Shown one piece after another: positions 8,638 to 29,877 of a stretch of DNA of 33,571 nt. Under the pieces are notes generated by a model, which had not been told where the DNA came from, made no database searches, and saw nothing but the letters and a program-made list of their open reading frames with translations. The DNA lies in assembly GCA_903861835.1 (NCBI GenBank), contig CAIOVX010000051.1, positions 1 through 33,571 on the forward strand. The letters are read 5' to 3'. The position numbers and the translations under genes are program-made. The stretch's first letter is position 1, and every line of letters starts with the position of its first letter. The DNA is from Candidatus Firestoneibacteriota bacterium (lineage in GTDB: Bacteria > Oederibacteriota > D2-FULL-39-29 > CAIOVX01).

Positions 8638-9822
8638 TTGAACCGTAATATTTGGATCATACTTATTTCCTCCGCCCTATTCAACGTTTGCTTGGGTATG
8701 TACGACTTTGCCCTCCCCTACTTCTTTGATTCCATCAATATTTCCTACGCGAAGATGGGGCTAATCTTCGGGATATCCTCAGGGCTGATTTTTTTCCTGA
8801 GAATGTATGTCGGGGCGCATTCCGACAGGATAGGGAGAAAACCTTTTTACTCAATGGGGCTGCTGCTCTCGGCCCTCAGCATCCTTGCAACACCGCTTCT
8901 CCCGGGATTGATAGCGCAGGCCTCGTTCAAGACTGTCAGGGAGGCCTCTCTGATAGTCCGCGACACCATGAGGTCAATCCTCGTCTTTGAGAACACAAAA
9001 AAGGATTTCCACAAAATAATTTCAAAGATAATCGGAATAGAGTTTTTTCTGCAGGGCGCCGGAACATTAATATCCGGCATAATCATGACCGGCGGGATGC
9101 TCTCCGCGGGTTTCCTCGCCAAAGAAGCAAAACTGTCCCCCGCTCAGGCCTCTCTTCCGCTATATGCCTGCGGGGCGATACTGCTCGTTGCCTTCATATT
9201 CTTCTCCTCTCAGTTCAAAGAAAGCTTTAAAGGGAACGGCAGTAAGGCAGCCATCGGCTTTAAGGACCTTGTCAAAATCAACCTGCCGCCGAAACTGCTG
9301 CTTTTGACGGCGACAATGTTCATTTTCAACCTGGGCGTTTCCATCAGCCATTCTTTCTTTATGCCGCTCTTTTTCAAAAACAAGTTTCTGCTCGGAGCGG
9401 CCGTTGTCGCAATCATCCTTATGATACACCGGTTCACGCTGGGACTCCCGATGTTCGTATTCGGCAACTTCATAAAAAGGAAAGATTTTAAAAAGGTTTA
9501 TATCCTGTCAATGATTTACGAGGGGCTTGCTATCGGGGCGGCCGCACTGATCCCCAATTTCTGGATTGCCACCTGCCTCTGGCTGACACACGACTTCTTC
9601 GGGGCTGCCTTCTGGTCTCCGATAAACACTTCTTTCATTCAGGAATTCGCTAGGCCGGAAAGCCGCGGGAGGGACACCTCCGAAGCCGCAGCGCTCGGTT
9701 CGCTTGGCGCCATCCTTGGACCAATCATCGCGGGCTGGCTTGCAGGCATCTCCTTGGACCTTCCCTTCTTAGTCAGCGGCATTGTAACGGCCCTTTCCGT
9801 CGTTCCGCTTTTCTGGCTTTAG
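8638..9822 (+). CDS. MFS transporter
   Basis: A 394-residue protein with about 12 hydrophobic segments and the MFS motif A (AHSDRIGRKP, near residue 60) after the second helix. The start is TTG at 8638, with GAAGGAG 5 nt upstream; no better ATG exists before the first membrane helix. Substrate cannot be told; sugar or drug efflux are both possible. It is divergent from the GH4 gene and 105 bp upstream of the radical SAM operon, which has its own predicted promoter, so it may belong with either neighbour. The protein ends right after the last helix, slightly short for the family. Confidence 0.82.
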   Translation: MNRNIWIILISSALFNVCLGMYDFALPYFFDSINISYAKMGLIFGISSGLIFFLRMYVGAHSDRIGRKPFYSMGLLLSALSILATPLLPGLIAQASFKTVREASLIVRDTMRSILVFENTKKDFHKIISKIIGIEFFLQGAGTLISGIIMTGGMLSAGFLAKEAKLSPAQASLPLYACGAILLVAFIFFSSQFKESFKGNGSKAAIGFKDLVKINLPPKLLLLTATMFIFNLGVSISHSFFMPLFFKNKFLLGAAVVAIILMIHRFTLGLPMFVFGNFIKRKDFKKVYILSMIYEGLAIGAAALIPNFWIATCLWLTHDFFGAAFWSPINTSFIQEFARPESRGRDTSEAAALGSLGAILGPIIAGWLAGISLDLPFLVSGIVTALSVVPLFWL

Positions 9823-9927: not shown

Positions 9928-11427
9928 ATGAAATACGGCAATGCAGCAATTTACTATCCCCCGACCCTCAAAAACGGCCAATTCCCTCTGCTGGGCCAGA
10001 ACCGCCAGTTCAAGTTCACAAGTTCAAAAGAGATAAGGATATTTCCCTTGCTCCCCGCTTCCACTGCCACCATGCTGAAACAGAAAGGATATGGAACGCT
10101 CTTTCTTGACGCTATTAACCTGAGATTAAGCGCTGAAGAATGTTTTGCTCAGTTAGACTCCTTCAAACCTGACATTATAATAATGGAGACCAAAGCGCCG
10201 CTCTTTAGTCTGCACCTTGCTATAGCGGCTGAACTTAAAGCCAAATACGGGGCAAAGATAATCTTCTGCGGCGACCATGTTTCCTTCTTTCCGGAAGAGA
10301 CGCTAAAGTCAGGAGCCGTGGATTACGCCGTAACGACCGGCTACTATGATTTTATTATCACGGAACTTCTTGATTTCCTTAACGGGAAGACTGCCTCTAT
10401 GCCCGGCGGAGTTTATTATACGGAAAACGGTAAAGCGGTGAATTCCGGAAAAATAAAGGACTACGACCTTAACTCAGCCCCCTTCATAGACAGGGACCTT
10501 ACACATTGGGAAAAGTACGGCGAGGCCTACCTTTACAAACCGGCAGCCTACATTCTTTCAGGCAGGGGCTGCGGCGGCGCCAGCAAGAACCCTTCCGGGC
10601 TTGTATCCGAAAAACCCGGTAAATGCGCTTTCTGTATCTGGCAGCACGCGCTCTGGGGAAGGGCGGCAAAACTCCGTTCCGCGGCTAACTTCGCAGAGGA
10701 AGTGGAAATACTCGTGAAGAAATACCGGGTTAAGGAGATTTTTGACGACAACGAATCCGGCGGCACCTGGCACGAAGGCTGGCTGAAAGAACTTTACGAG
10801 GAACTGAATAAAAGGAAGCTTCTCGGCAAGTTTTATATCTCTTCCAACGCGCGCGCGGACGCCCTTACCGAAGAAAGATGCGCTCTGCTCAAAAAGATCG
10901 GCTACCGGCTGCTCAAGGTAGGGCTGGAATCCGCCAACGACAAAACTCTTCAAATCATCCAGAAGGACGAGGATTTTGCAACAATAGAAAAAGGCATCAA
11001 GACCGCCAAACGCTACGGGTTCGCCGTGCTCCTTACCACAATGGTCGGCTATCCGTGGGAGAATGAGCAGGACGCCGAGAACACTTACCGCAAGGCAAAA
11101 GAACTGATGCTCTACAAGACCCATTTCGGAGACTCAATGCAGTCCAGTATAATCCTCCCGTATCCCGGCACTCCCCTCTTTATTTATGCCGAGAAGAACG
11201 GTTATCTGACAAAGAACGCTTCGGACTACACGCTCTATGATATGGAACACGATATAGTCAAGGGCTCCTTTGATAACGCGGCCTGGTGCAAGAAGATGTG
11301 GAAAATACACCTGCACCCGCTCTTTATGTTAAGATCCCTCATTACCTTGCGCAGACTCCAGGATATAAAGCTAGCCGTAACCGGAATGCTCTCCCTCCTT
11401 GGGCACCTGAAGGATTATGGCGAATAA
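9928..11427 (+). CDS. Cobalamin-type radical SAM enzyme with atypical CX17CX2C motif
   Basis: A 499-residue protein with an N-terminal B12-binding-like domain (about 1-165; IIFCGDHVSFFPEE, then VTTGYYDFIITELLDFL), a radical SAM barrel and a helical C-terminus. The segment CAFCIW...G...KLRS resembles the HpnJ-like subgroup, which often acts on lipids or isoprenoids. The three cluster cysteines are C215, C233 and C236: the first spacing is 17 residues instead of 3, with an in-frame insert (GASKNPSGLVSEKP). The rest of the fold (FDDNESGG, LKVGLESAN) is intact, so the gene is not obviously decayed. Good site AAGGAG upstream. First gene of an operon; the next start overlaps by 11 bp. The reaction is unknown. 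Confidence 0.85.
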   Translation: MKYGNAAIYYPPTLKNGQFPLLGQNRQFKFTSSKEIRIFPLLPASTATMLKQKGYGTLFLDAINLRLSAEECFAQLDSFKPDIIIMETKAPLFSLHLAIAAELKAKYGAKIIFCGDHVSFFPEETLKSGAVDYAVTTGYYDFIITELLDFLNGKTASMPGGVYYTENGKAVNSGKIKDYDLNSAPFIDRDLTHWEKYGEAYLYKPAAYILSGRGCGGASKNPSGLVSEKPGKCAFCIWQHALWGRAAKLRSAANFAEEVEILVKKYRVKEIFDDNESGGTWHEGWLKELYEELNKRKLLGKFYISSNARADALTEERCALLKKIGYRLLKVGLESANDKTLQIIQKDEDFATIEKGIKTAKRYGFAVLLTTMVGYPWENEQDAENTYRKAKELMLYKTHFGDSMQSSIILPYPGTPLFIYAEKNGYLTKNASDYTLYDMEHDIVKGSFDNAAWCKKMWKIHLHPLFMLRSLITLRRLQDIKLAVTGMLSLLGHLKDYGE

Positions 11428-12385
11428 CATTTTTATATCCTTCATAATCCCGCACAGGGAATCGGAGGATGTTTCCGGGACTGCAAAACTGGCAAGGGAA
11501 GCCTGTGAGAAGAACGGTATAGAGTGCGAGATTTACGCTATAAGCGGGAATCACCCGACCAAACAGCGAAACATCTGCCTCGGACTGCCTTTAAAGGGTG
11601 AATTCGTCTACTTTATAGACAATGACACTTGTGTTACCGAAAAAGCCCTGGCTGAATTTAAGAGAGTTCTTGAAAACAAAGGCCCGGAACTCGGCGTGCT
11701 CGGAGGCCCGACGCTTACGCCGGAAACCGACACCTACCTTATGAAAAATTTCGGGGCCGTGCTTTCAAGCCCTGCCGCTGTCGGAAAGATATCCTCAAGG
11801 TATTCAAGGCAGGGAAAATTCAGAGAGACGGACGATTCAGAACTCATTCTCTGCAACCTCCTCGTGCGCCGGGAAATCTTCACCAAATTCGGCAAGTTCA
11901 GCGAAAAACTCTACCCAAACGAGGAGAATGAATTTATATTCAGACTCAAGCAGGCAGGCGTGAATGTCTATTACAGCCCTGACTTTTCCATTTACCGCTC
12001 GCAGAGAAAAACAATAGGCAATTTTCTCAAACAGATGTTCGTTTACGGGCGCGGACGCGGAGAGCAAACGCGTTTAGCGCCAAAAAGCCTGCGGCCGGGA
12101 CTGCTCGCTCCCTCTCTCCTTTTTCTTTACTGCGCCGCGCTTATACCGGCGCTATTACTAGGGGTCTCCGCGTTTTTCGCACTGCCCCTGGCATTTTACG
12201 CTGGCTTGCTTGTTGCACCGCTCTTGGCTTTCTTTCCCGGGCTTCTTCCTGCGCACCTTTATCCTGTTCTTACTTTCTCCGCCCACATAATGTACGGTAT
12301 CGGTTTTCTGTGGGGCGTCATCAAAGGCAGATACAAAGCCGACAACATAGATTTTACTTACAAGCTCAATAAGGTGGAAAAATGA
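11417..12385 (+). CDS. Membrane-anchored family 2 glycosyltransferase
   Basis: A GT2 (GT-A fold) protein of 322 residues: N-terminal ISFIIPHRES, the metal-binding DND of FIDNDTCV (near 70), and YPNEENEFIFRL supplying the acidic catalytic motif. Residues about 230-300 form two or three membrane helices. Such enzymes transfer a sugar from a nucleotide donor to a lipid or polyprenyl-phosphate acceptor at the cytoplasmic membrane. The start overlaps the end of the radical SAM gene by 11 bp, and the stop overlaps the next start by 4 bp (ATGA), so it is translationally coupled on both sides. Donor and acceptor cannot be told. Confidence 0.88.
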   Translation: MANNIFISFIIPHRESEDVSGTAKLAREACEKNGIECEIYAISGNHPTKQRNICLGLPLKGEFVYFIDNDTCVTEKALAEFKRVLENKGPELGVLGGPTLTPETDTYLMKNFGAVLSSPAAVGKISSRYSRQGKFRETDDSELILCNLLVRREIFTKFGKFSEKLYPNEENEFIFRLKQAGVNVYYSPDFSIYRSQRKTIGNFLKQMFVYGRGRGEQTRLAPKSLRPGLLAPSLLFLYCAALIPALLLGVSAFFALPLAFYAGLLVAPLLAFFPGLLPAHLYPVLTFSAHIMYGIGFLWGVIKGRYKADNIDFTYKLNKVEK

Positions 12386-13539
12386 CGGAAGTTATAATCA
12401 AGAAATGCCCCTCCTATGCCTCAAGCCTGCTGAAGGCGGCCGCGTCAGAAATCTTTAAGCATTTCGGCGGCGTGAACGCCCTTTACAAAAAAGGCAGCAG
12501 GGTAGCGGTAAAAGTTAACCTCATAACGCCAGCAAAACCCGAAGAGGCGATAGTCACACATCCGGCAGTCGTCCGGGCTTTCTGCGAGGAATTGGTTTCA
12601 GCGGGTGTAATTCCGGTGATAATGGATTCGCCTAACGCCGCGATCAAGTATTCCCCTGAATCATTAAAGAAGATCTATGAGGAGTGCGGCTACATAGAAC
12701 ACCTGAAAGGCCTGCCGGTGGAATTTAATTATGACGTCTCAAGCGTTAATGTGAAAATAGAGAACGGAAAGGTGATAAAGTTCGCGGAACTTATCTGCCC
12801 TCTTCTTAAGGCTGACGGGGTACTCAATTTGGCCAAAGGGAAAACTCACGCCTTTACCTATATTACGGGAGCAACCAAGAATCTTTTTGGAACGGTGGCA
12901 GGCATAAATAAGGGCGCCTATCACGCGAAACTCAAAAATGTTGAGAATTTTTCGGAGATGCTGCTTGATATCGCGGGCTTCGTGAAACCGGCCCTCTCCG
13001 TGATAGACGCCGTGCTCTGCATGGAAGGCAACGGGCCAACAGGAGGCACGCCGAAACAGGCAGGCTACCTGATTGCCTCAACAAATACCTGCGCGGCTGA
13101 CAAGGTATTCTGCGACCTTATAGGTTTCCCCTTCCTGTCGTACCCGCTCCTTAAAAAGGCCTCGGAAAGAGGAATCCTTGCAGCGGATTCAATAAGACTT
13201 ACGGGCACCTACGAACAAGTACAAAACTTTAAGATGGCCGATACTTCGGCAGGCCTCTACGGATTTGTAAACCCCAACGCCGTCACCAGGCTCTTCGCCG
13301 TACTGGCCAAGGACCTGCTTACTTTAAAGCCGGACATGAATTCGAACTGTACGGGCTGCGCCGTCTGCGCCAAGGGCTGCCCTATGAAGGCGATATCTAT
13401 AAAGAAGAAACGGGCGGTCATAGACCACTCTAAATGTATCAGGTGCTACTGCTGCCACGAGATGTGCCCCAATAAGGCCGTTGACCTCAAGAAGAAAGCG
13501 CTTTACCGGCTCGGCGAAAAACTGCTCGGGAGGAAATAA
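12382..13539 (+). CDS. DUF362 protein with C-terminal double [4Fe-4S] ferredoxin domain
   Basis: Residues 1-310 form a DUF362 domain (KGSRVAVKVNLITP, KGKTHAFTYITGATKNLFG). Residues 322-362 hold two cluster motifs: C323, C326, C329, C333 and C352, C355, C358, C362, a classic 2[4Fe-4S] pattern. DUF362 proteins are widespread in anaerobes and poorly characterised; a redox role is suggested only by the clusters. Sitting between a glycosyltransferase and a radical SAM gene, with a 4-bp overlap upstream and 1 bp spacing downstream, it may pass electrons to the two radical SAM enzymes of the operon (inference). Confidence 0.85.
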   Translation: MTEVIIKKCPSYASSLLKAAASEIFKHFGGVNALYKKGSRVAVKVNLITPAKPEEAIVTHPAVVRAFCEELVSAGVIPVIMDSPNAAIKYSPESLKKIYEECGYIEHLKGLPVEFNYDVSSVNVKIENGKVIKFAELICPLLKADGVLNLAKGKTHAFTYITGATKNLFGTVAGINKGAYHAKLKNVENFSEMLLDIAGFVKPALSVIDAVLCMEGNGPTGGTPKQAGYLIASTNTCAADKVFCDLIGFPFLSYPLLKKASERGILAADSIRLTGTYEQVQNFKMADTSAGLYGFVNPNAVTRLFAVLAKDLLTLKPDMNSNCTGCAVCAKGCPMKAISIKKKRAVIDHSKCIRCYCCHEMCPNKAVDLKKKALYRLGEKLLGRK

Positions 13540-13540
13540 C

Positions 13541-14605
13541 ATGTCGCTCTTAAACAAAGTCCGGCTCGGGTCCTCGCTGCTGGGCTCAAAAATATCCGGG
13601 CATTCAGCGCCTCTCATTATAAACTGGGCTATAACAGGCAAGTGCAACCTGCGCTGCACCCACTGCTACGGCTCCTACGGGAGAGTGCAGAACGAAGAGT
13701 TGAGTTTTGATACGATAACAAAGACCATTGACGAGGCGCGCGAGCTGGGGACTAAAAGGATAACTATCGAGGGCGGAGAACCTTTAGTCCGGCATGATGT
13801 TGCCGAAATAATTGATTATATCAGCAAAGCAGGCATGGAGATGAGTCTCTGCACGAACGGCGTACTGCTTGGACGCTATGCCGAAAAGATAAAAGACAAA
13901 ATAGACCTGATAGTCCTGAGTCTCGACGGAAACGAAGCTCACCACGATAAAATACGCGGAGCGGGAAACTTCAGGAAGGTAATGGAAGCCGTTGAGACAG
14001 CAAAACAGAACAAACTGAGAGTGCTGCTTTTCTCCTGCCTTATAGACGAAAATATGGCCGACATTGACTATCTCGTCAAACTGGCCGAAGAAAAAGGCGT
14101 AAAGAGCGCCTTCAACATTGCCGTATCAAAATTAAAGGACGCGGGCAAGAGAGAAGAAGGCCTTAAGCTTTCCGACGAAACCTACAGAAAAGCAGTCGCG
14201 CAGATAATAGCCGCAAAAGCCAAAGGGGCTCCGATCTATTACTCGGACAGGAACTTTAACCAGGCCCTATGCTGGCCGACTTTCACCTCCGAAAAACTAT
14301 TTAGCGCCGACATAGAAAAACTATCAGCTGCTCAGAGAAAAACGCTGGTGAGGTGTTTTGCCGGCAAGCACTTCTGCTACATTGAATCAAGCGGCGGGGT
14401 CTATCCCTGCTATCAGACGGTAGGCACGCTTACTGCGGGAAACATAAAGGACGCCGGAGGCTTGAAGGGCGCGTTCGATAATCTTTCTAAACTTGAGTAC
14501 TGCAAGGCCTGCTACAATGTCACACTCTCGGAATTAAACCTGCAATGCCGCCTGGACTTTAAATCGGTGCTTAAAGTGGGCGCGAATTACTTCGGAAGGA
14601 AATAA
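13541..14605 (+). CDS. Radical SAM protein with SPASM-like C-terminus
   Basis: A 354-residue protein with canonical CX3CX2C (C35, C39, C42 in TGKCNLRCTHC), GGEP (near 85) and a cysteine-rich C-terminus (RCFAGKHFCYIESSGGVYPC, then CKACYN and QCRLD) that can bind extra iron-sulfur clusters, as in SPASM/twitch enzymes such as PqqE and sactipeptide synthases. I chose ATG 13541, preceded by GGGAGG, over the in-frame ATG at 13481 that lies inside the previous gene. No short precursor peptide was seen in the neighbourhood, so a peptide substrate is not supported. Last gene of the operon; it runs toward the aconitase gene with an 18-bp gap and no visible terminator. Confidence 0.87.
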   Translation: MSLLNKVRLGSSLLGSKISGHSAPLIINWAITGKCNLRCTHCYGSYGRVQNEELSFDTITKTIDEARELGTKRITIEGGEPLVRHDVAEIIDYISKAGMEMSLCTNGVLLGRYAEKIKDKIDLIVLSLDGNEAHHDKIRGAGNFRKVMEAVETAKQNKLRVLLFSCLIDENMADIDYLVKLAEEKGVKSAFNIAVSKLKDAGKREEGLKLSDETYRKAVAQIIAAKAKGAPIYYSDRNFNQALCWPTFTSEKLFSADIEKLSAAQRKTLVRCFAGKHFCYIESSGGVYPCYQTVGTLTAGNIKDAGGLKGAFDNLSKLEYCKACYNVTLSELNLQCRLDFKSVLKVGANYFGRK

Positions 14606-16556: not shown

Positions 16557-17729
16557 TTAAATGTGTTCTTCGGCTTTGCCGGCTTTGCCGGCTTTGCCTT
16601 CGCTTTTCAACTCGATTAGCTCGTACTTGCTGGAGCCCAGGCCGTACTTCTCGGATTGTTCTATGGTAATGTTTGTATCTCTTTTGTTCACTTTGCCGAG
16701 CACTTCTCCGGCTTCCATCAGGCCGTAGTCCTCAGCCCTCGACTGCGGCAAAGGTTTTGCCTTGTTGACCATATCGAGCGAAGCGCGGTCAACCGCCACA
16801 AGATCGTCGCTGATAAGGATGCCCTGATCCTGAACCACCGGAGTGTCCGCCACCGGCATGCAGTCGCATTCCGGCTGGACCTCCATTATGAAATTGACAT
16901 AGATAATTTTTTTCGGTTTGAAAGTGCTTATGACCGCTTTGGAAGCTTCCGCTATATGGATTGCAAGCCGTTCCGAGGTTATCGGCATCGCAAGCGCCTC
17001 GTCGGGACAGATTCTCGCGCAGCGGCCGCAAATCCAGCAAAGATCCTTATTGACCGTGATGGATTCATTTTTCTTAAGCGTAATAGACTTTGTCGGACAG
17101 ACCTTTTCGCAGCGACCGCAGTAGGTGCACTTCCCCTTCTGCCATTCCGGCGGAGTCGCGCTGACAGAATGAAGCCTTCCCCTGTTGTTATGGCCGCAAT
17201 GCGTGTGGGGGCTAACGCCGCCCATGCCCATATTCTTAATAGCGCCGCCGAAACCCGCCTGAATGTGCCCTTTGAAATGGGAGAGCACTACCATCGCGTC
17301 GGCGTGATAAATGGCCCCTGCTACATCAATTTCCTGGATGTGTTTCGCGCCGGGAACCTTTACGGTGACCGCGTCCTTCCCGAAGAGCCCGTCAGCAACA
17401 ACCACGGGCGCCCCGCAAGTAAGGTGCGTGTACCCGTTATAGGCCGCAACCTCAAGATACTCAAGGGATTCAATCCTGGTAGTATCTGTGACAAAGGGCC
17501 TGCCGCCGGCGGCTTTTATGGCGTCCACGGTCTTCCTGACGAATACCGGGCGCACCGTGCGGAAAGAGCCCTGCGAGCCGAAATGTATTTTTACTGCCAC
17601 TTTCTCCTTCGGCGATATGTATTTTTTCAGGCCGGCAAGAAGCAGCAGCTGCTCATACTTGAAAGGCAGTGAATAACTTGAATCCCAGACCGTGCAGCGC
17701 GCGCTTGTAAAATAAACTTTAGACGGCAT
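16557..17729 (-). CDS. DUF362 protein with internal double [4Fe-4S] domain
   Basis: A second DUF362-type protein, built differently from the one at 12382: the 2[4Fe-4S] ferredoxin unit lies in the middle (C201-C211 CTYCGRCEKVC and C231-C241 CWICGRCARIC), followed by about 150 further residues. The N-terminal half has KVAVKIHFGSQGSFRTVRP and a His/Gly-rich stretch (KNMGMGGVSPHTHCGHNNRG). I chose ATG 17729, with GGAG 8 nt upstream, over longer frames reaching 17798. The start overlaps the upstream GT2-like gene by 11 bp. The C-terminus ends in a Lys-Ala-Gly repeat encoded by a 9-bp tandem. Function unknown; cytoplasmic redox protein likely. Confidence 0.83.
   Translation of the reverse strand: MPSKVYFTSARCTVWDSSYSLPFKYEQLLLLAGLKKYISPKEKVAVKIHFGSQGSFRTVRPVFVRKTVDAIKAAGGRPFVTDTTRIESLEYLEVAAYNGYTHLTCGAPVVVADGLFGKDAVTVKVPGAKHIQEIDVAGAIYHADAMVVLSHFKGHIQAGFGGAIKNMGMGGVSPHTHCGHNNRGRLHSVSATPPEWQKGKCTYCGRCEKVCPTKSITLKKNESITVNKDLCWICGRCARICPDEALAMPITSERLAIHIAEASKAVISTFKPKKIIYVNFIMEVQPECDCMPVADTPVVQDQGILISDDLVAVDRASLDMVNKAKPLPQSRAEDYGLMEAGEVLGKVNKRDTNITIEQSEKYGLGSSKYELIELKSEGKAGKAGKAEEHI
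16571..16597. repeat. 9-bp tandem repeat inside the DUF362 gene
   Basis: Three perfect copies of CGGCTTTGC encode the Lys-Ala-Gly repeats just before the C-terminus of the minus-strand DUF362 protein. A copy-number change would keep the frame. Confidence 0.8.
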
Positions 17730-18810
17730 TTTGTTTTCTCCAGGTGATATATACAGCTCTAATAGACGCATAATTGTGAAGCGAGACATAATAGGCAATT
17801 TTTGAGATACCGGTTACCGCGGCGGCATAAAATATTATCTGCGCGCCAAAACTGAAGGCAAAAAAGATATCTGTATTGAGGAGCAGCAGGTTAAGAATAA
17901 AAAGGAGCAGCGCCGCAACTCCGGAGGCCGGCAGCAGCAGGTTATCAAAAGAGGCGCAGAGCCAAGCGTTAAGTTTTCTTTTTCCAAGAAGTTCCCTTAT
18001 TGAGCCCGCTGAACCGAGGGCCGCGGAAAGTTCAACTGCCTCTTCCTCGGCAAGAACTCCGGCTTTCCCGTGAAGTTCAAGCTCGGTAACCGCGAGAGGT
18101 TCATAACGGGAAAGATGGCCGCTGCAGATTACCGCAAGGGGAATAGCCGAGCTTCCGCTTGAACCGGCCGGTATGCTCTTTACCGCATCTTTCCTAAAAG
18201 CGTAAAGCAGCATATTGGCGGAAACTACCAGACCGACGGCGTCAAGCAGGCGTGTGACATATTCATTATAGGCCTCTATTTTATTAAGCCCGCCCCTGTA
18301 ATTCTCGTGCCCTCCGGTATAAACCGCCTTTCCGGAAACAGCCCCGGTCTTTTCGTCGGTGAATTTCCTGAGAATGTTTTTCACCGCGTATTTGTCAAGC
18401 ATAGAAGCCGAATCGGTGACTATGACAACTTCGCCCTTGCACTCGGTCGCGCAGCGTACCATGGTTCCGGCAGGCGTCTGCTTTTCGGCAGGGTAAAAGA
18501 GCTTTACGCCTTTCTTGAAATAACCTGTGACCAGCGAGTCAACCGAGGCGTCGCGCTCGTTCACGGCAACAACCAGCTCTGGTCCCTCGCCTTTGGGTTC
18601 AAGCAGCAGGCAGTTTTCTATCTTGGCCTTAAGCTGTTCAGGGTTTCCGCCGTAAAGTATCATAAGCGAGGCAGAAGGGACCGCGCATAAATTAATCGCG
18701 CGTTTTCTCGAAAATAGACCAAGTAATCTGACATAAACTGGGAAAAGGAAATAAAGCAGGAACAACAGGGAGACGATAAGCCAGAATGTGATAGTAAATA
18801 TGATCGCCAT
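17719..18810 (-). CDS. GT2-like membrane protein with degraded catalytic motifs
   Basis: The layout is that of processive GT2 enzymes: an N-terminal membrane helix, a GT-A-like domain and two or three C-terminal helices (about 285-345), 363 residues. The segment DEKTGAVSGKAVY matches the motif after the DxD site, and VIVTDSASMLD stands where family members have TDADT, so the second metal Asp is lost. The usual ED motif is replaced by AVICSGHLSRYEP, and Q(Q/R)xRW is absent. I infer a non-catalytic or highly diverged member. No Shine-Dalgarno site; a promoter places the transcript start at the ATG. The next gene overlaps its end by 11 bp. Confidence 0.72.
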   Translation of the reverse strand: MAIIFTITFWLIVSLLFLLYFLFPVYVRLLGLFSRKRAINLCAVPSASLMILYGGNPEQLKAKIENCLLLEPKGEGPELVVAVNERDASVDSLVTGYFKKGVKLFYPAEKQTPAGTMVRCATECKGEVVIVTDSASMLDKYAVKNILRKFTDEKTGAVSGKAVYTGGHENYRGGLNKIEAYNEYVTRLLDAVGLVVSANMLLYAFRKDAVKSIPAGSSGSSAIPLAVICSGHLSRYEPLAVTELELHGKAGVLAEEEAVELSAALGSAGSIRELLGKRKLNAWLCASFDNLLLPASGVAALLLFILNLLLLNTDIFFAFSFGAQIIFYAAAVTGISKIAYYVSLHNYASIRAVYITWRKQNAV

Positions 18811-18897: not shown

Positions 18898-21003
18898 TTA
18901 GTCGGGCATATTCTCTAGCATCTGCATCTCTTTCTTTATTCTGTCAACTTCAGCATCTGTGGGATTATAAATAAGGTACTTCTTCCAGATATCCAAAGTT
19001 TTCTTCTTCTCGCGATAAATATTCGCATAAATTATCCCGAGGTTTTTGTACGGAGAGGAAAAGCCCGGGTCCATCTTAATGGCGTCAAGATACTCCTTCT
19101 CAGAGTAGCCGAACAGTTTCTTGGTCGCGGCCGAAATAGGGCGTCCTGCCCTCATATCCTCGTTGAGCAGTTGTCCGGCGTAAAGATCATAGGTCCAGCC
19201 CTGGTTGAAGCGCGCTTTCGCGTAAATGGTGACCAGCTCGGATTCAAAGGAGTTGGGGTCGTAGAACCTGGGCTCCGCCCGCCTTAAAACATACCTTCCC
19301 CATGCGCGATCATTCTCGCCCTTGAGCGCATCAACGCTTATGGGCTCGGTGACCGGGAAAGCTATTCGAAGCAGTCCCGAGGCCAGCAATTTGTAGTCTT
19401 TATCCATACTCGGATCGCGCGGACCAGAGAAATACATGCGTCTTCCCGGATTTGCTTCCAGGAACTGGCGAATAGGGTAATTCACGCCGTCGTAAAGCGG
19501 GAATGGGACGTTTACATCTTTCATTCTGTATCTGAGCTGATCGCAGTACCAGGGATAGGTTAATTTTTCCTGGTCTATTACATAAATGTTCGGCCTTCTC
19601 TTGTCTACCATCTGGTAATAATCAAGACCCATCGAGAGCGTGTCTCCGCTCACAACCATAATAGAGCCATGCGGCTCATAGCGTATCATATTGCCGCAGA
19701 AATCGTAGAGGAGCCAGTTATCCGATTTGTTTGGATTTCTTGAGTTGGGTCCTACCGTAAGGACAAGTATCAACGTGAGCAACCCGCCGATGATGTATTT
19801 TCTGGGCAGCTGTTTAACTCTGTCAAGTATTGTTTCATAACCCGCGGCGACAAAGATGCCGAAAATCAGGAAGGAAATAATGTACATCCTGCGTATCACA
19901 TGCAAAACTACCTTATCCCTGACAATGTCAAAAAGAGAAACAAAGACAAAGCTCATAAAGATAAAAGTTATAAGCAGAAAAACAGCTTCCTGCCTCTTCT
20001 TCCAGAAGAGTCGGACCATACCGAAAAAGCCTATAACCAGACCGAGGCTGGTATACAGCGCCAGAAACAGTGCCTGGCCCGCTACCGGAATATTGGAAAG
20101 TGATTTCCAGTTTATGGACGGGCTGATTCCGGCATAAGAAAGCAAGTTGTGAACACTAATGCCCAGGAACTCGTCGGCAAGCTCGCGGGTATACAGATAG
20201 GCTTGTCCCAATTCCAGATCAAAGAAATGATCTATATGAAAGACTGACGGCGGATAATTCTTTCTGAAAAGCATATGCAGGAAATTCTCGACGTTTACCG
20301 GGTTGTCCCAGTTAAGCGGCGGATGAGCGTTGGCTGATATCGGCAGGTAAATATAGAATAGCATTCCGGCAAGTGCCACGAGACAGCCGAGCATAACGGC
20401 AAGCCCGCCCTCCAGAAAATAGGTGCCGCGGTCAGGCATTCCGAACTGCTTGTAGTATTTTGACATGTAAAGCAATACCACAAACATTCCGGGTCCGAGG
20501 ATTATGATGGTATGGTGGTGAGACACGCCAAGGCCGATAAAAAGGAACATCAGCAGGAACGTTTTAAGGTCTTTCTTCTTCCTGAAGAGCAGGAACATAT
20601 ATATAGTGAGATAAATAAAGAAATTATTCAGAGTGAAAACTTCCGCCACAACGGAGTATTCCCAGATGATAGGCACAAAAGCCAGCGTGAGCAGGCCAAG
20701 AATCCTCGCGGCCTTGCTGTCAAGCAGTTGCTCAAGAATCTTGTAGAAGAAAAAAAGCGAAAGGAGCGCAAAGAAGACGGACATCGCATTGACCCTGCAG
20801 GCAATGTTGCTTATAGGCAGATAAGTAAAGGCCTTGCCGAGCAGAGTGTAGAGCGGGTAGCCGGGTTCGTGCGCCACGCCGAGAGTGTAAGAGGCGACCA
20901 CCATCTCAGAGGAATCGCCGGTGGCGGTTATGCAGGGAGCCAGCGAAAAGATATACGCAGTTCCTATTACTAAAAGAGCAATGATGTGTATATGTTTTTT
21001 CAT
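18898..21003 (-). CDS. DUF2723 (GT117-type) membrane glycosyltransferase with C-terminal TPR-like region
   Basis: A 701-residue protein with an N-terminal signal anchor, the DUF2723 signature GDSSEMVVASYTLGVAHEPGYPLY (two overlapping motifs, residues 29-52) and about ten membrane helices in the first 420 residues, followed by a soluble region. The last 70 residues (KMDPGFSSPYKNLGIIYAN) look like a TPR. DUF2723 belongs with GT-C transferases that use lipid-linked sugars; the eukaryotic relative TMEM260 is an O-mannosyltransferase. The start directly abuts the stop of a sugar-nucleotide pyrophosphorylase gene, suggesting that this enzyme feeds it through a mannose-type donor (inference). Ends at a strong terminator. 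Confidence 0.82.
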   Translation of the reverse strand: MKKHIHIIALLVIGTAYIFSLAPCITATGDSSEMVVASYTLGVAHEPGYPLYTLLGKAFTYLPISNIACRVNAMSVFFALLSLFFFYKILEQLLDSKAARILGLLTLAFVPIIWEYSVVAEVFTLNNFFIYLTIYMFLLFRKKKDLKTFLLMFLFIGLGVSHHHTIIILGPGMFVVLLYMSKYYKQFGMPDRGTYFLEGGLAVMLGCLVALAGMLFYIYLPISANAHPPLNWDNPVNVENFLHMLFRKNYPPSVFHIDHFFDLELGQAYLYTRELADEFLGISVHNLLSYAGISPSINWKSLSNIPVAGQALFLALYTSLGLVIGFFGMVRLFWKKRQEAVFLLITFIFMSFVFVSLFDIVRDKVVLHVIRRMYIISFLIFGIFVAAGYETILDRVKQLPRKYIIGGLLTLILVLTVGPNSRNPNKSDNWLLYDFCGNMIRYEPHGSIMVVSGDTLSMGLDYYQMVDKRRPNIYVIDQEKLTYPWYCDQLRYRMKDVNVPFPLYDGVNYPIRQFLEANPGRRMYFSGPRDPSMDKDYKLLASGLLRIAFPVTEPISVDALKGENDRAWGRYVLRRAEPRFYDPNSFESELVTIYAKARFNQGWTYDLYAGQLLNEDMRAGRPISAATKKLFGYSEKEYLDAIKMDPGFSSPYKNLGIIYANIYREKKKTLDIWKKYLIYNPTDAEVDRIKKEMQMLENMPD

Positions 21004-22044
21004 TTAGCCCCTCAGCCTGCTGTACGGCGCGAGCACTGTTCCTTCTCCCAGGACTGTCTCTCCGGAAATGAAAGAGGAAGCGCCCACTTTGACACCGCCT
21101 GCAAGCACGCAATCAGAGAGAACACAGTTGTCTCCGATTTTGACATTATCCCATAATATGGCCCGCTCGACCATACAATTTTTCCCGATGATACAGTTTT
21201 TTCCGAGCACAGAGAGTTCACCGATAACGGAATTATCCCCGACAACCGTGCCTGCCCCGATGCTGAACGGCTTCACCGCTCGCGCTCCCTTGCCGAGCTT
21301 CACGCCTTTGCCGGCGGTTTCGAGCCCCTTAACTCTGTAAGAGCCCTCAAGGATATCCCTGCATGCTTTGGCGTACTTTGCCACCGTGCCTACGTCCATC
21401 CAGTAGATATTGCGGGAAACAAAGCCGAAGAAGCCCGCTCCGATGAATTTCGGGAAAATATCTCTCTCGATTGAATAAACCTTTCCCGCTTTCATAAGCG
21501 CTACCATTCCGGGTTCAATAATGTAGACACCGGCATTGATGTTTAGAACCTTGCCCGCAACTTCTTCCGGGGACGGTTTCTCAAGGAACTTCAAGACATT
21601 ACCCCCGCGCCCGGTCTCTACCACTCCGTAAGCGGAAGGATTGCTGACCGGGGTAAGCGCTATGGTAGCCCGGCTCTTCTTCTCTCTGTGAAACTTGAGC
21701 ATTTTTGAAAGGTCAAGACTCGTAAGAATATCTCCGTTCATAACCACGGTAGTTCCGTCTATATATTTCTCAGCCCGTTTCACTGCCCCGCCCGTGCCAA
21801 GCGGGCTGGCCTCATAAATGTAATCTATCTTCATGCCCCTATAACTGCTGCCTATGACTTTTTTCAGCATAGCGGGCTTGTAACAGGCGCTCAGCACGAC
21901 TTCGCTGATGCCGTGAGATTTGAGCCAGTTGAGGATATAAAACATCATCGGCCGGTTCACAACAGGGACTACAGCTTTCGGCACGCAAAGCGTAAGAGGC
22001 CGAAGCCTTGTTCCTTCACCGCCGACCAGGACTATTGCTCTCAA
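21004..22044 (-). CDS. Sugar-nucleotide pyrophosphorylase, mannose-1-phosphate guanylyltransferase-like
   Basis: The N-terminal nucleotidyltransferase domain shows GGEGTRLRPLT and PKAVVPVVNRPM (residues 8-32), the metal site GDIL near 100 and WMDVGT near 215. The C-terminal 90 residues form a left-handed beta helix of hexapeptide repeats (IGELSVLGKNCIIGKNC). Enzymes of this type make NDP-sugars from a sugar 1-phosphate and NTP; the layout is like GDP-mannose pyrophosphorylase, but glucose-1-phosphate transferases are close. Start is TTG at 22044, 4 nt after GGAGG. It lies 16 bp after cmk and abuts the DUF2723 gene. Confidence 0.85.
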   Translation of the reverse strand: MRAIVLVGGEGTRLRPLTLCVPKAVVPVVNRPMMFYILNWLKSHGISEVVLSACYKPAMLKKVIGSSYRGMKIDYIYEASPLGTGGAVKRAEKYIDGTTVVMNGDILTSLDLSKMLKFHREKKSRATIALTPVSNPSAYGVVETGRGGNVLKFLEKPSPEEVAGKVLNINAGVYIIEPGMVALMKAGKVYSIERDIFPKFIGAGFFGFVSRNIYWMDVGTVAKYAKACRDILEGSYRVKGLETAGKGVKLGKGARAVKPFSIGAGTVVGDNSVIGELSVLGKNCIIGKNCMVERAILWDNVKIGDNCVLSDCVLAGGVKVGASSFISGETVLGEGTVLAPYSRLRG

Positions 22045-28503: not shown

Positions 28504-29877
28504 TTAGTGCTTCGCTTTGAAAACAAAATGCAGCACTCCGCTCAGCGCGTCCTTAAGGTTTGAAGGCCTCAGCGTTCCGATTGCCAGTTTAATAAGCTTA
28601 AACGGTCTAAAGTAAAAGCTTCTGTAAGCCTTCTTGACATAACCTTCAACCAGCGCGCGGTCAATATAGCCGAAATCGAAATAACTTTTGCGGTCGAACT
28701 GGCTGTAAGAACTCCAGTCAGAGGTGTCAATTTTCCCTTCCTTTTTTATCACTTCAAAAAGGCGGGTCCCGGGAAAAGGAGTTGCCACGGAGAACTGAGC
28801 GAAATCAAGCTCCGTCTTTAGAGCGAAATCAACCGAATCCTGCAGGGTAGCGGCAGTCTCGCCCGGGCTTCCCATAACGAAAAAGCCTACAGTCTTCAAA
28901 CCCGCCTTCTTGGCAATACGTATTGCCTTTCTTATTTCTTCGAGGTCTATTTTTTTCCCGATAGAATCCAGCATTGCCTGATTGCCGGACTCTATCCCAA
29001 ACGCAATTCTGTAGCAGCCGGACTGCCGCATTAGCCCGGCCAGTTCTTCATCAAAAGCGTCCGCTCTTATTCCGTTGGGCGTCGTCCAGGGCAGAGTAAT
29101 TCTCTGTTTAATTATCTCCCTGCAGATATCCTTGGCGCGGTCCAGGCGTATATTAAAGAGGTCGTCCTGAACGGAAATCTCCTTTACCCCGTGTTTTTCA
29201 ATAAGCCAGCGCCACTCGGCAGTGACGCTCTCTTTGGATCTGAACCTGTACCTTCTGCCGTAGACCCCTTTAAAACAGAAAACGCAGTCATAGGGGCAAC
29301 CGCGGGAAGTCAGTATGTTTGCCGCGGGAGTTCTCCCTGAAATTAGCGGCTGGGGGTTCGTATAGTTTTTCTTGAGGTCAGGAAATAAATGATACGCGGG
29401 GAACGGCAGGGAGTCAATATCTGCCAGCGGCTCCCTTGCGGGACCTTCAACAAGTTTTCCTCCGCGCGCGCTCACTAACCCGGCAATGCCTTCAGTCGCG
29501 CCGCCCTTTTCCAGGGCTGCACAGAGTTCAAGCATGGTCTGCTCGCCCTCGCCTTTCACCACAAAATCCACAAAAGGAAGAGCGGCTGATTCCGACGGGA
29601 TCGCCGAGACATGCGGGCCGCCGATTACGGTTATGACGCCGAGTTTTTCTTTAGCCTCTTTCAAAACCCGCCAGGCTTCATTTACTGTAGGTGTGGTCGC
29701 AGTTACTCCGACCAGATCGGCATTTTCAATTTTCGCGTCCGGAGTGACTCTCAGGTCTATTACTGTTACCGAGTGCCCTGCTTTCTCCAGTACCGCCGCT
29801 ATGTAGGCCAGTCCGAGCGAGATAGTTCTCGCGCGTATCCAGATCTGTTCCCGGGGCTGAACCAGCGTAATCCTCAT
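28504..29877 (-). CDS. B12-binding radical SAM protein (BchE/HpnJ-like superfamily)
   Basis: A 457-residue protein with an N-terminal cobalamin-binding domain (1-125; VTVIGGPHVSAIP, VVKGEGEQTMLEL), a canonical radical SAM cluster motif SRGCPYDCVFC (C194, C198, C201), FGIESGNQAMLDSIGK and a C-terminal helical region (YFRPFKLIKLAI) of the kind seen in members acting on lipids. The substrate is unknown. It serves as a useful internal comparison for the paralogue at 9928, whose cysteine spacing is different. A GGAGGAAG site precedes the ATG. It is inserted between nnr and thiL in an otherwise housekeeping run. Confidence 0.87.
   Translation of the reverse strand: MRITLVQPREQIWIRARTISLGLAYIAAVLEKAGHSVTVIDLRVTPDAKIENADLVGVTATTPTVNEAWRVLKEAKEKLGVITVIGGPHVSAIPSESAALPFVDFVVKGEGEQTMLELCAALEKGGATEGIAGLVSARGGKLVEGPAREPLADIDSLPFPAYHLFPDLKKNYTNPQPLISGRTPAANILTSRGCPYDCVFCFKGVYGRRYRFRSKESVTAEWRWLIEKHGVKEISVQDDLFNIRLDRAKDICREIIKQRITLPWTTPNGIRADAFDEELAGLMRQSGCYRIAFGIESGNQAMLDSIGKKIDLEEIRKAIRIAKKAGLKTVGFFVMGSPGETAATLQDSVDFALKTELDFAQFSVATPFPGTRLFEVIKKEGKIDTSDWSSYSQFDRKSYFDFGYIDRALVEGYVKKAYRSFYFRPFKLIKLAIGTLRPSNLKDALSGVLHFVFKAKH

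Follow-up and report, generated by a model that had tools for sequence, protein, structure and literature searches.

Radical SAM enzymes usually carry the signature CX3CX2C. One gene in the window (the whole 33,571-nucleotide stretch of DNA analysed here, from a member of the Firestonebacteria) encodes CX17CX2C instead, which raises the questions of whether this spacing is genuine, whether the first cysteine still serves as a cluster ligand, and whether the added residues have a role. The open reading frame starts with ATG, with AAGGAG just 5' of it, and its translation reads SGRGC215-GGASKNPSGLVSEKPGK-C233-AF-C236-IWQH across the cluster segment, as the original prediction had proposed (Table 1). 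The cysteines of the protein are residues 72, 114, 215, 233, 236, 318, and 454. A paralogue on the reverse strand (28504-29877) has RGCPYDCVFC and thus the expected CX3CX2C. The surplus of the window protein over CX3, given earlier as 14 or so in-frame residues, is exactly 14, and the frame is open in two congeneric species; the FDDNE and GLESAN motifs, said to be intact, were both found.

The match to PF04055 (60.1 bits, cut-off 29.5) identifies a radical SAM barrel but begins at residue 231, profile position 9, leaving C215 outside. The B12-binding profile PF02310 scored 23.2 bits, below its cut-off of 32.1, which relatives at L042, L088, and L005 passed (36.8, 41.2, and 38.6 bits, respectively). 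Matches among plasmid records were all distant, at less than 60% identity (about 28% among the matches listed).

Table 1. Positions of the radical SAM gene, its motifs, and the neighboring genes in the window.
Feature	Position	Strand	Evidence
MFS transporter, directly upstream	8638-9822	+	PF07690; kept in both congeners
Radical SAM enzyme, 499 aa, Rossmann (B12-binding-like) domain and radical SAM barrel	9928-11427	+	ORF, Pfam, AlphaFold2 model, Foldseek
C215, first cluster cysteine	10570-10572	+	Invariant in 37/37; aligned to first cluster Cys of MgmA (9ccb)
17-residue loop, first to second cluster Cys (residues 216-232)	10573-10623	+	Orthologue lengths 8-26
C233-A-F-C236, second and third cluster cysteines, followed by IWQH	10624-10635	+	C233, C236, W238, Q239 invariant in 37/37
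FDDNE (272-276), end of next strand, place of usual GGE-type SAM motif	10741-10755	+	D273, D274, N275 in 37/37; E276 in 36/37
GLESAN motif (332-337)	10921-10938	+	E334 invariant in 37/37
GT2-type glycosyltransferase, overlapping end of radical SAM gene	11417-12385	+	PF13632, 35.5 bits, above cut-off
DUF362 protein with ferredoxin domain	12382-13539	+	PF04015 and Fer4 domains
SPASM-type radical SAM protein, end of gene set	13481-14605	+	PF04055, 95.1 bits; weak SPASM

Homologues were collected from a scan of genome contigs, which gave 15 loci, and then from additional genomes of the window's phylum and of the phyla of L005 and L009. After removal of redundancy, the 136 proteins fell into four motif classes: 37 with a long first loop, which include the window protein, 45 with CX4CX2C, 31 with CX3CX2C, and 23 with none of the three cysteines. 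First gaps among the 37 were CX10 (10 proteins), CX9 (8), CX8 (6), CX12 (5), CX17 (4), CX26 (3), and CX22 (1). The records come from Spirochaetes (Spirochaetota), Actinomycetota (an actinomycete MAG), Chloroflexi, Planctomycetota, Woesearchaeota, and Firestonebacteria, names that belong to metagenome bins and could be incorrect for individual records. The four CX17 proteins are those of the window, its two congeners, and L087, from another phylum. The expectation that several unrelated genomes would share CX17CX2C if it were real agrees in spirit with these data: L087, from the Spirochaetota sample, has the same spacing, and the remaining orthologues have CX8 to CX26 and not CX3; the length of 17 itself is not fixed. 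A lone insertion among homologues uniformly CX3CX2C, which would have told against the spacing, is not what these first gaps of 8 to 26 residues show. The remodelling of the cluster-binding loop proposed in the original prediction extends to all 37 members, and the long first gap is a property of the whole clade, variable in length, rather than a CX17-specific motif.

We placed these proteins in an unrooted maximum likelihood tree of 82 sequences from which all columns between C215 and C236 had been removed; it was used in place of a first tree that contained the loop columns. All 29 long-loop proteins in the tree lay on one side of a branch with 100/100 support, adjoining the CX4 arm; another 100/100 branch set the CX3 proteins apart. 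By this topology the long loop has a single origin. Because CX3 is the general state of the superfamily, a change from CX3 to CX4 and to the long loop would be the natural reading of the unrooted tree. The sister of the window protein was L087 (100/98), whose genome comes from the sample of L005's phylum (Spirochaetes).

The residues around the loop are strongly conserved. Y10, P11, Q24, R26, G212, R213, G214, C215, C233, and C236 are identical in all 37 long-loop proteins, as are W238, Q239, D273, D274, N275, S305, N307, R309, E334, G374, P376, and D402. From this conservation we infer that the enzyme binds a cluster and cleaves SAM, and the position of FDDNE suggests that it takes part in SAM binding. 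An AlphaFold2 model of the window protein built from 16 sequences had a mean pLDDT of 89 and a pTM of 0.90, with residues 216-232 in its lower-confidence blocks. The model of L005, which has CX26, reached pLDDT 86.9 and pTM 0.90, with loop residues 220-225 below 50. The order of core elements is identical in the two models, the last strand before the motif being 202-205 in L005 and 206-209 in the window protein and the helix after it 242-247 and 237-241, respectively. The best solved matches to the window model in Foldseek were AprD4, TsrM, MgmA, and OxsB. A profile alignment to MgmA (9ccb) set GRGC on RGC and CTFC on CTFC, with the length difference between them.

Very probably, the cluster site is an ordinary radical SAM site apart from a lengthened loop between its first two cysteine ligands, and it most likely still binds an ordinary cluster despite the stretched loop. 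C215, C233, and C236, which would meet at one cluster, would together hold a site-differentiated [4Fe-4S] cluster whose fourth iron is bound by SAM. The additional residues would protrude from the barrel in the stretch that joins strand 1 to helix 1, a place in which their length and sequence would be free to vary.

The neighboring genes bear on the possible substrate. In other phyla, too, a GT2 of the same family adjoins the radical SAM gene. At the locus of L087 (L146), the radical SAM gene is followed by a GT2 gene and a SPASM radical SAM gene as in the window, where the DUF362 gene stands between the latter two. As raw counts, a GT2 of one family lies at most two ORFs away in nine of 33 long-loop loci and seven of 10 CX4 loci; since the window, L125, and L126 are congeneric and count as one lineage, about seven long-loop associations are independent. 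No such GT2 was found within two ORFs in the other 24 long-loop loci, and several Spirochaetota and same-phylum long-loop loci have unrelated neighbors (LysM/M23 peptidase, epimerase). Other neighbors that recur at some loci are a second GT2, polysaccharide flippase-type proteins, an NAD-dependent epimerase, and an LPG_synthase_TM protein. Because the GT2 recurs on both arms of the family, we tentatively propose a sugar or lipid-linked sugar (glycolipid) of the cell envelope as the substrate, an assignment that we consider somewhat less likely than not. The reaction might be a methylation, a dehydration, or a rearrangement. A mycofactocin-like system was considered since the GT2 and SPASM proteins matched the MftF and MftC models best, but the scores (57.6 against a cut-off of 280 and 120.8 against 265, respectively) led us to reject it.

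Two further features of the region deserve mention. The DUF362-ferredoxin protein at 12382-13539 has a second of its kind at 16557-17798, a few genes apart and on the opposite strand. We would guess that the first is a possible electron donor and that both may donate electrons to radical SAM enzymes. In addition, a gene for a TMEM260-like protein O-mannosyltransferase (18898-21003) adjoins one for a sugar nucleotidyltransferase (21004-22044), a pair that is consistent with the presence of envelope glycosylation genes in the region.

Whether the long loop itself has a function, for example in covering the cluster as a lid or in docking the substrate or an electron donor, and was lengthened to suit the local pathway, is a separate matter, and we consider such a function possible but rather unlikely. 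Within a subclade the loop does not change in length (CX26 in three proteins, CX10 in ten, CX12 in five), its sequence is largely preserved in the three congeners, and CX17 occurs together with the radical SAM-GT2-SPASM gene order in two phyla. Constant length within a subclade may, however, reflect simple inheritance; between subclades little of the loop sequence is conserved beyond the flanking GRGCG and [GS]xC, and the longest loops are modelled with low confidence. The more specific proposal that the loop forms a lid or docking arm carrying the first ligand, gates access of the substrate or electron donor, and sets specificity through a length that follows the partner pathway is more doubtful still.

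A displaced first ligand, with C318, C454, a loop cysteine, or a non-cysteine side chain taking the place of C215, had been raised in the original prediction and now seems very improbable. C318 and C454 are each kept in 28 of the 37 long-loop proteins, and a few members (L007, L013, L015) have an additional cysteine inside the loop. Yet C318 and C454 are each absent from the other nine, and the loop cysteines are sporadic, with none in the window protein. C215, on the other hand, never varies, whether in the long-loop clade, its CX4 sister clade, or the CX3 outgroup. As C215 is both invariant and aligned to the normal first ligand of the solved MgmA structure, the first ligand most likely still sits in its usual place, and we rejected this candidate.

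It is equally hard to credit that the protein is a degenerate, inactive homologue. Such a reading could draw on the weak B12-domain score in the window and on the existence of inactive-looking relatives that lack the three cysteines. These relatives, though, sit in the CX4 arm outside the long-loop clade, whose members invariably keep all three cysteines, DDN, R309, and E334. Codon changes between the congeners are also mostly synonymous. In assemblies of two congeneric species (L001 and L002), the proteins are 96 and 93% identical to that of the window, and the genes differ from it at 153 and 212 of 1,497 nucleotides (10-14%), with 120 synonymous and 20 non-synonymous codon changes in the first comparison and 156 and 33 in the second. 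Within the 22 codons from C215 to C236, each comparison showed one amino-acid change, and the 17-residue loop is intact and in frame in both congeners.

The chance that the 42-bp insert is an assembly or sequencing artefact is practically nil, because the same in-frame insert is kept in the assemblies of two congeners at 10-14% nucleotide difference and all 37 orthologues have a long gap; the congener comparison thus ruled out assembly error, and conservation from bacteria to archaea argues that the odd spacing is genuine.

The other branches of the family have peculiarities of their own. The sister clade uniformly has CX4CX2C, also a non-standard spacing (for example, L042:5708-7153 and L088:1459-2940), within GRDCxxxxCxFCSWT in most members. 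An N-terminal YPP...QNR motif and the GT2 neighbor are common to both arms. In 22 low-GC (24-28%) genomes of the Spirochaetota sample, a paralogue from the CX4 arm lacks all three cluster cysteines (L117:5779-7242, L118:5050-6513, and one each in L162-L181). Most of these have SX4YX2N and some AX4YX2A, the residues equivalent to Glu334 and Arg309 are also lost, and most of the 22 genomes have an intact CX4CX2C copy as well. Because its frame is open and its sequence conserved, this paralogue looks like a maintained pseudo-radical-SAM protein. A further relative without the cysteines (L120:5485-6954, YX4SX2S), from another genome of the same sample, did not group clearly with the others in the tree, and a second loss of the cysteines is possible there.

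The long-loop proteins, which are both bacterial and archaeal, make up a single orthologous clade whose first gap ranges over at least seven lengths (8-26) within conserved surroundings. Searches for the pattern CX3CX2C miss these proteins, and the Pfam domain match starts past the first ligand. With its range of gaps, the clade provides a natural experiment on how far a cluster loop can stretch and on whether the loop does anything.

Several known enzymes resemble the window protein in part. Its best NCBIfam match is HpnJ (TIGR03471; residues 30-433, 141.5 bits, E 3.7e-41), but the curated equivalog cut-off is 577.6 and the first gap differs; related CX3CX2C proteins have CLWP where the long-loop clade has C[IV]WQ. 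AprD4 (6fd2), the best Foldseek match (TM-score 0.72 by query length, E 9.7e-22, 16% identity), is a radical SAM 1,2-diol dehydratase that acts on a sugar (paromamine), and the window protein scored 39.7 against the cut-off of 500 for the NCBIfam AprD4 model (NF033070). Membership in HpnJ, BchE, HpnR, and AprD4 was rejected, as the scores fell below the curated cut-offs. The B12-domain radical SAM enzymes MgmA (the MCR glutamine C-methylase), TsrM, and OxsB share domain order and fold with the window protein, for which cobalamin binding would be a possibility; the motif of MgmA, unlike that of the window, is canonical CX3CX2C (RGCPGNCTFC).

Other spacings are on record. A literature search for CX10, CX12, CX15, CX17, or CX26 followed by CX2C returned plant GATA zinc fingers (PMC8153473, PMC11608367) and also matched a Dehalogenimonas genome report. 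GenD1, the gentamicin C-methyltransferase, is a cobalamin-dependent radical SAM enzyme that acts on an aminoglycoside and has CX4CX2C (PMC4340712) like our sister clade; its size is about 77 kDa, and the common CX4 may be a coincidence. A parallel for the long gap is QueE, which has a minimal (beta6/alpha3) core and whose CX14CX2C has been described as a canonical cluster motif in which one loop is extended (PMC4389238). Together with the CX4CX2C sister clade, this makes the spacing less isolated than first supposed. The likeness is confined to the extended first loop: QueE makes a deazapurine, whereas the window family has gaps of 8-26 residues and a Rossmann domain before the barrel, and no QueE model was among the 23 NCBIfam matches of the window protein. 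By analogy, the cluster site of the long-loop family would be canonical, with its first loop extended in the way already known from QueE.
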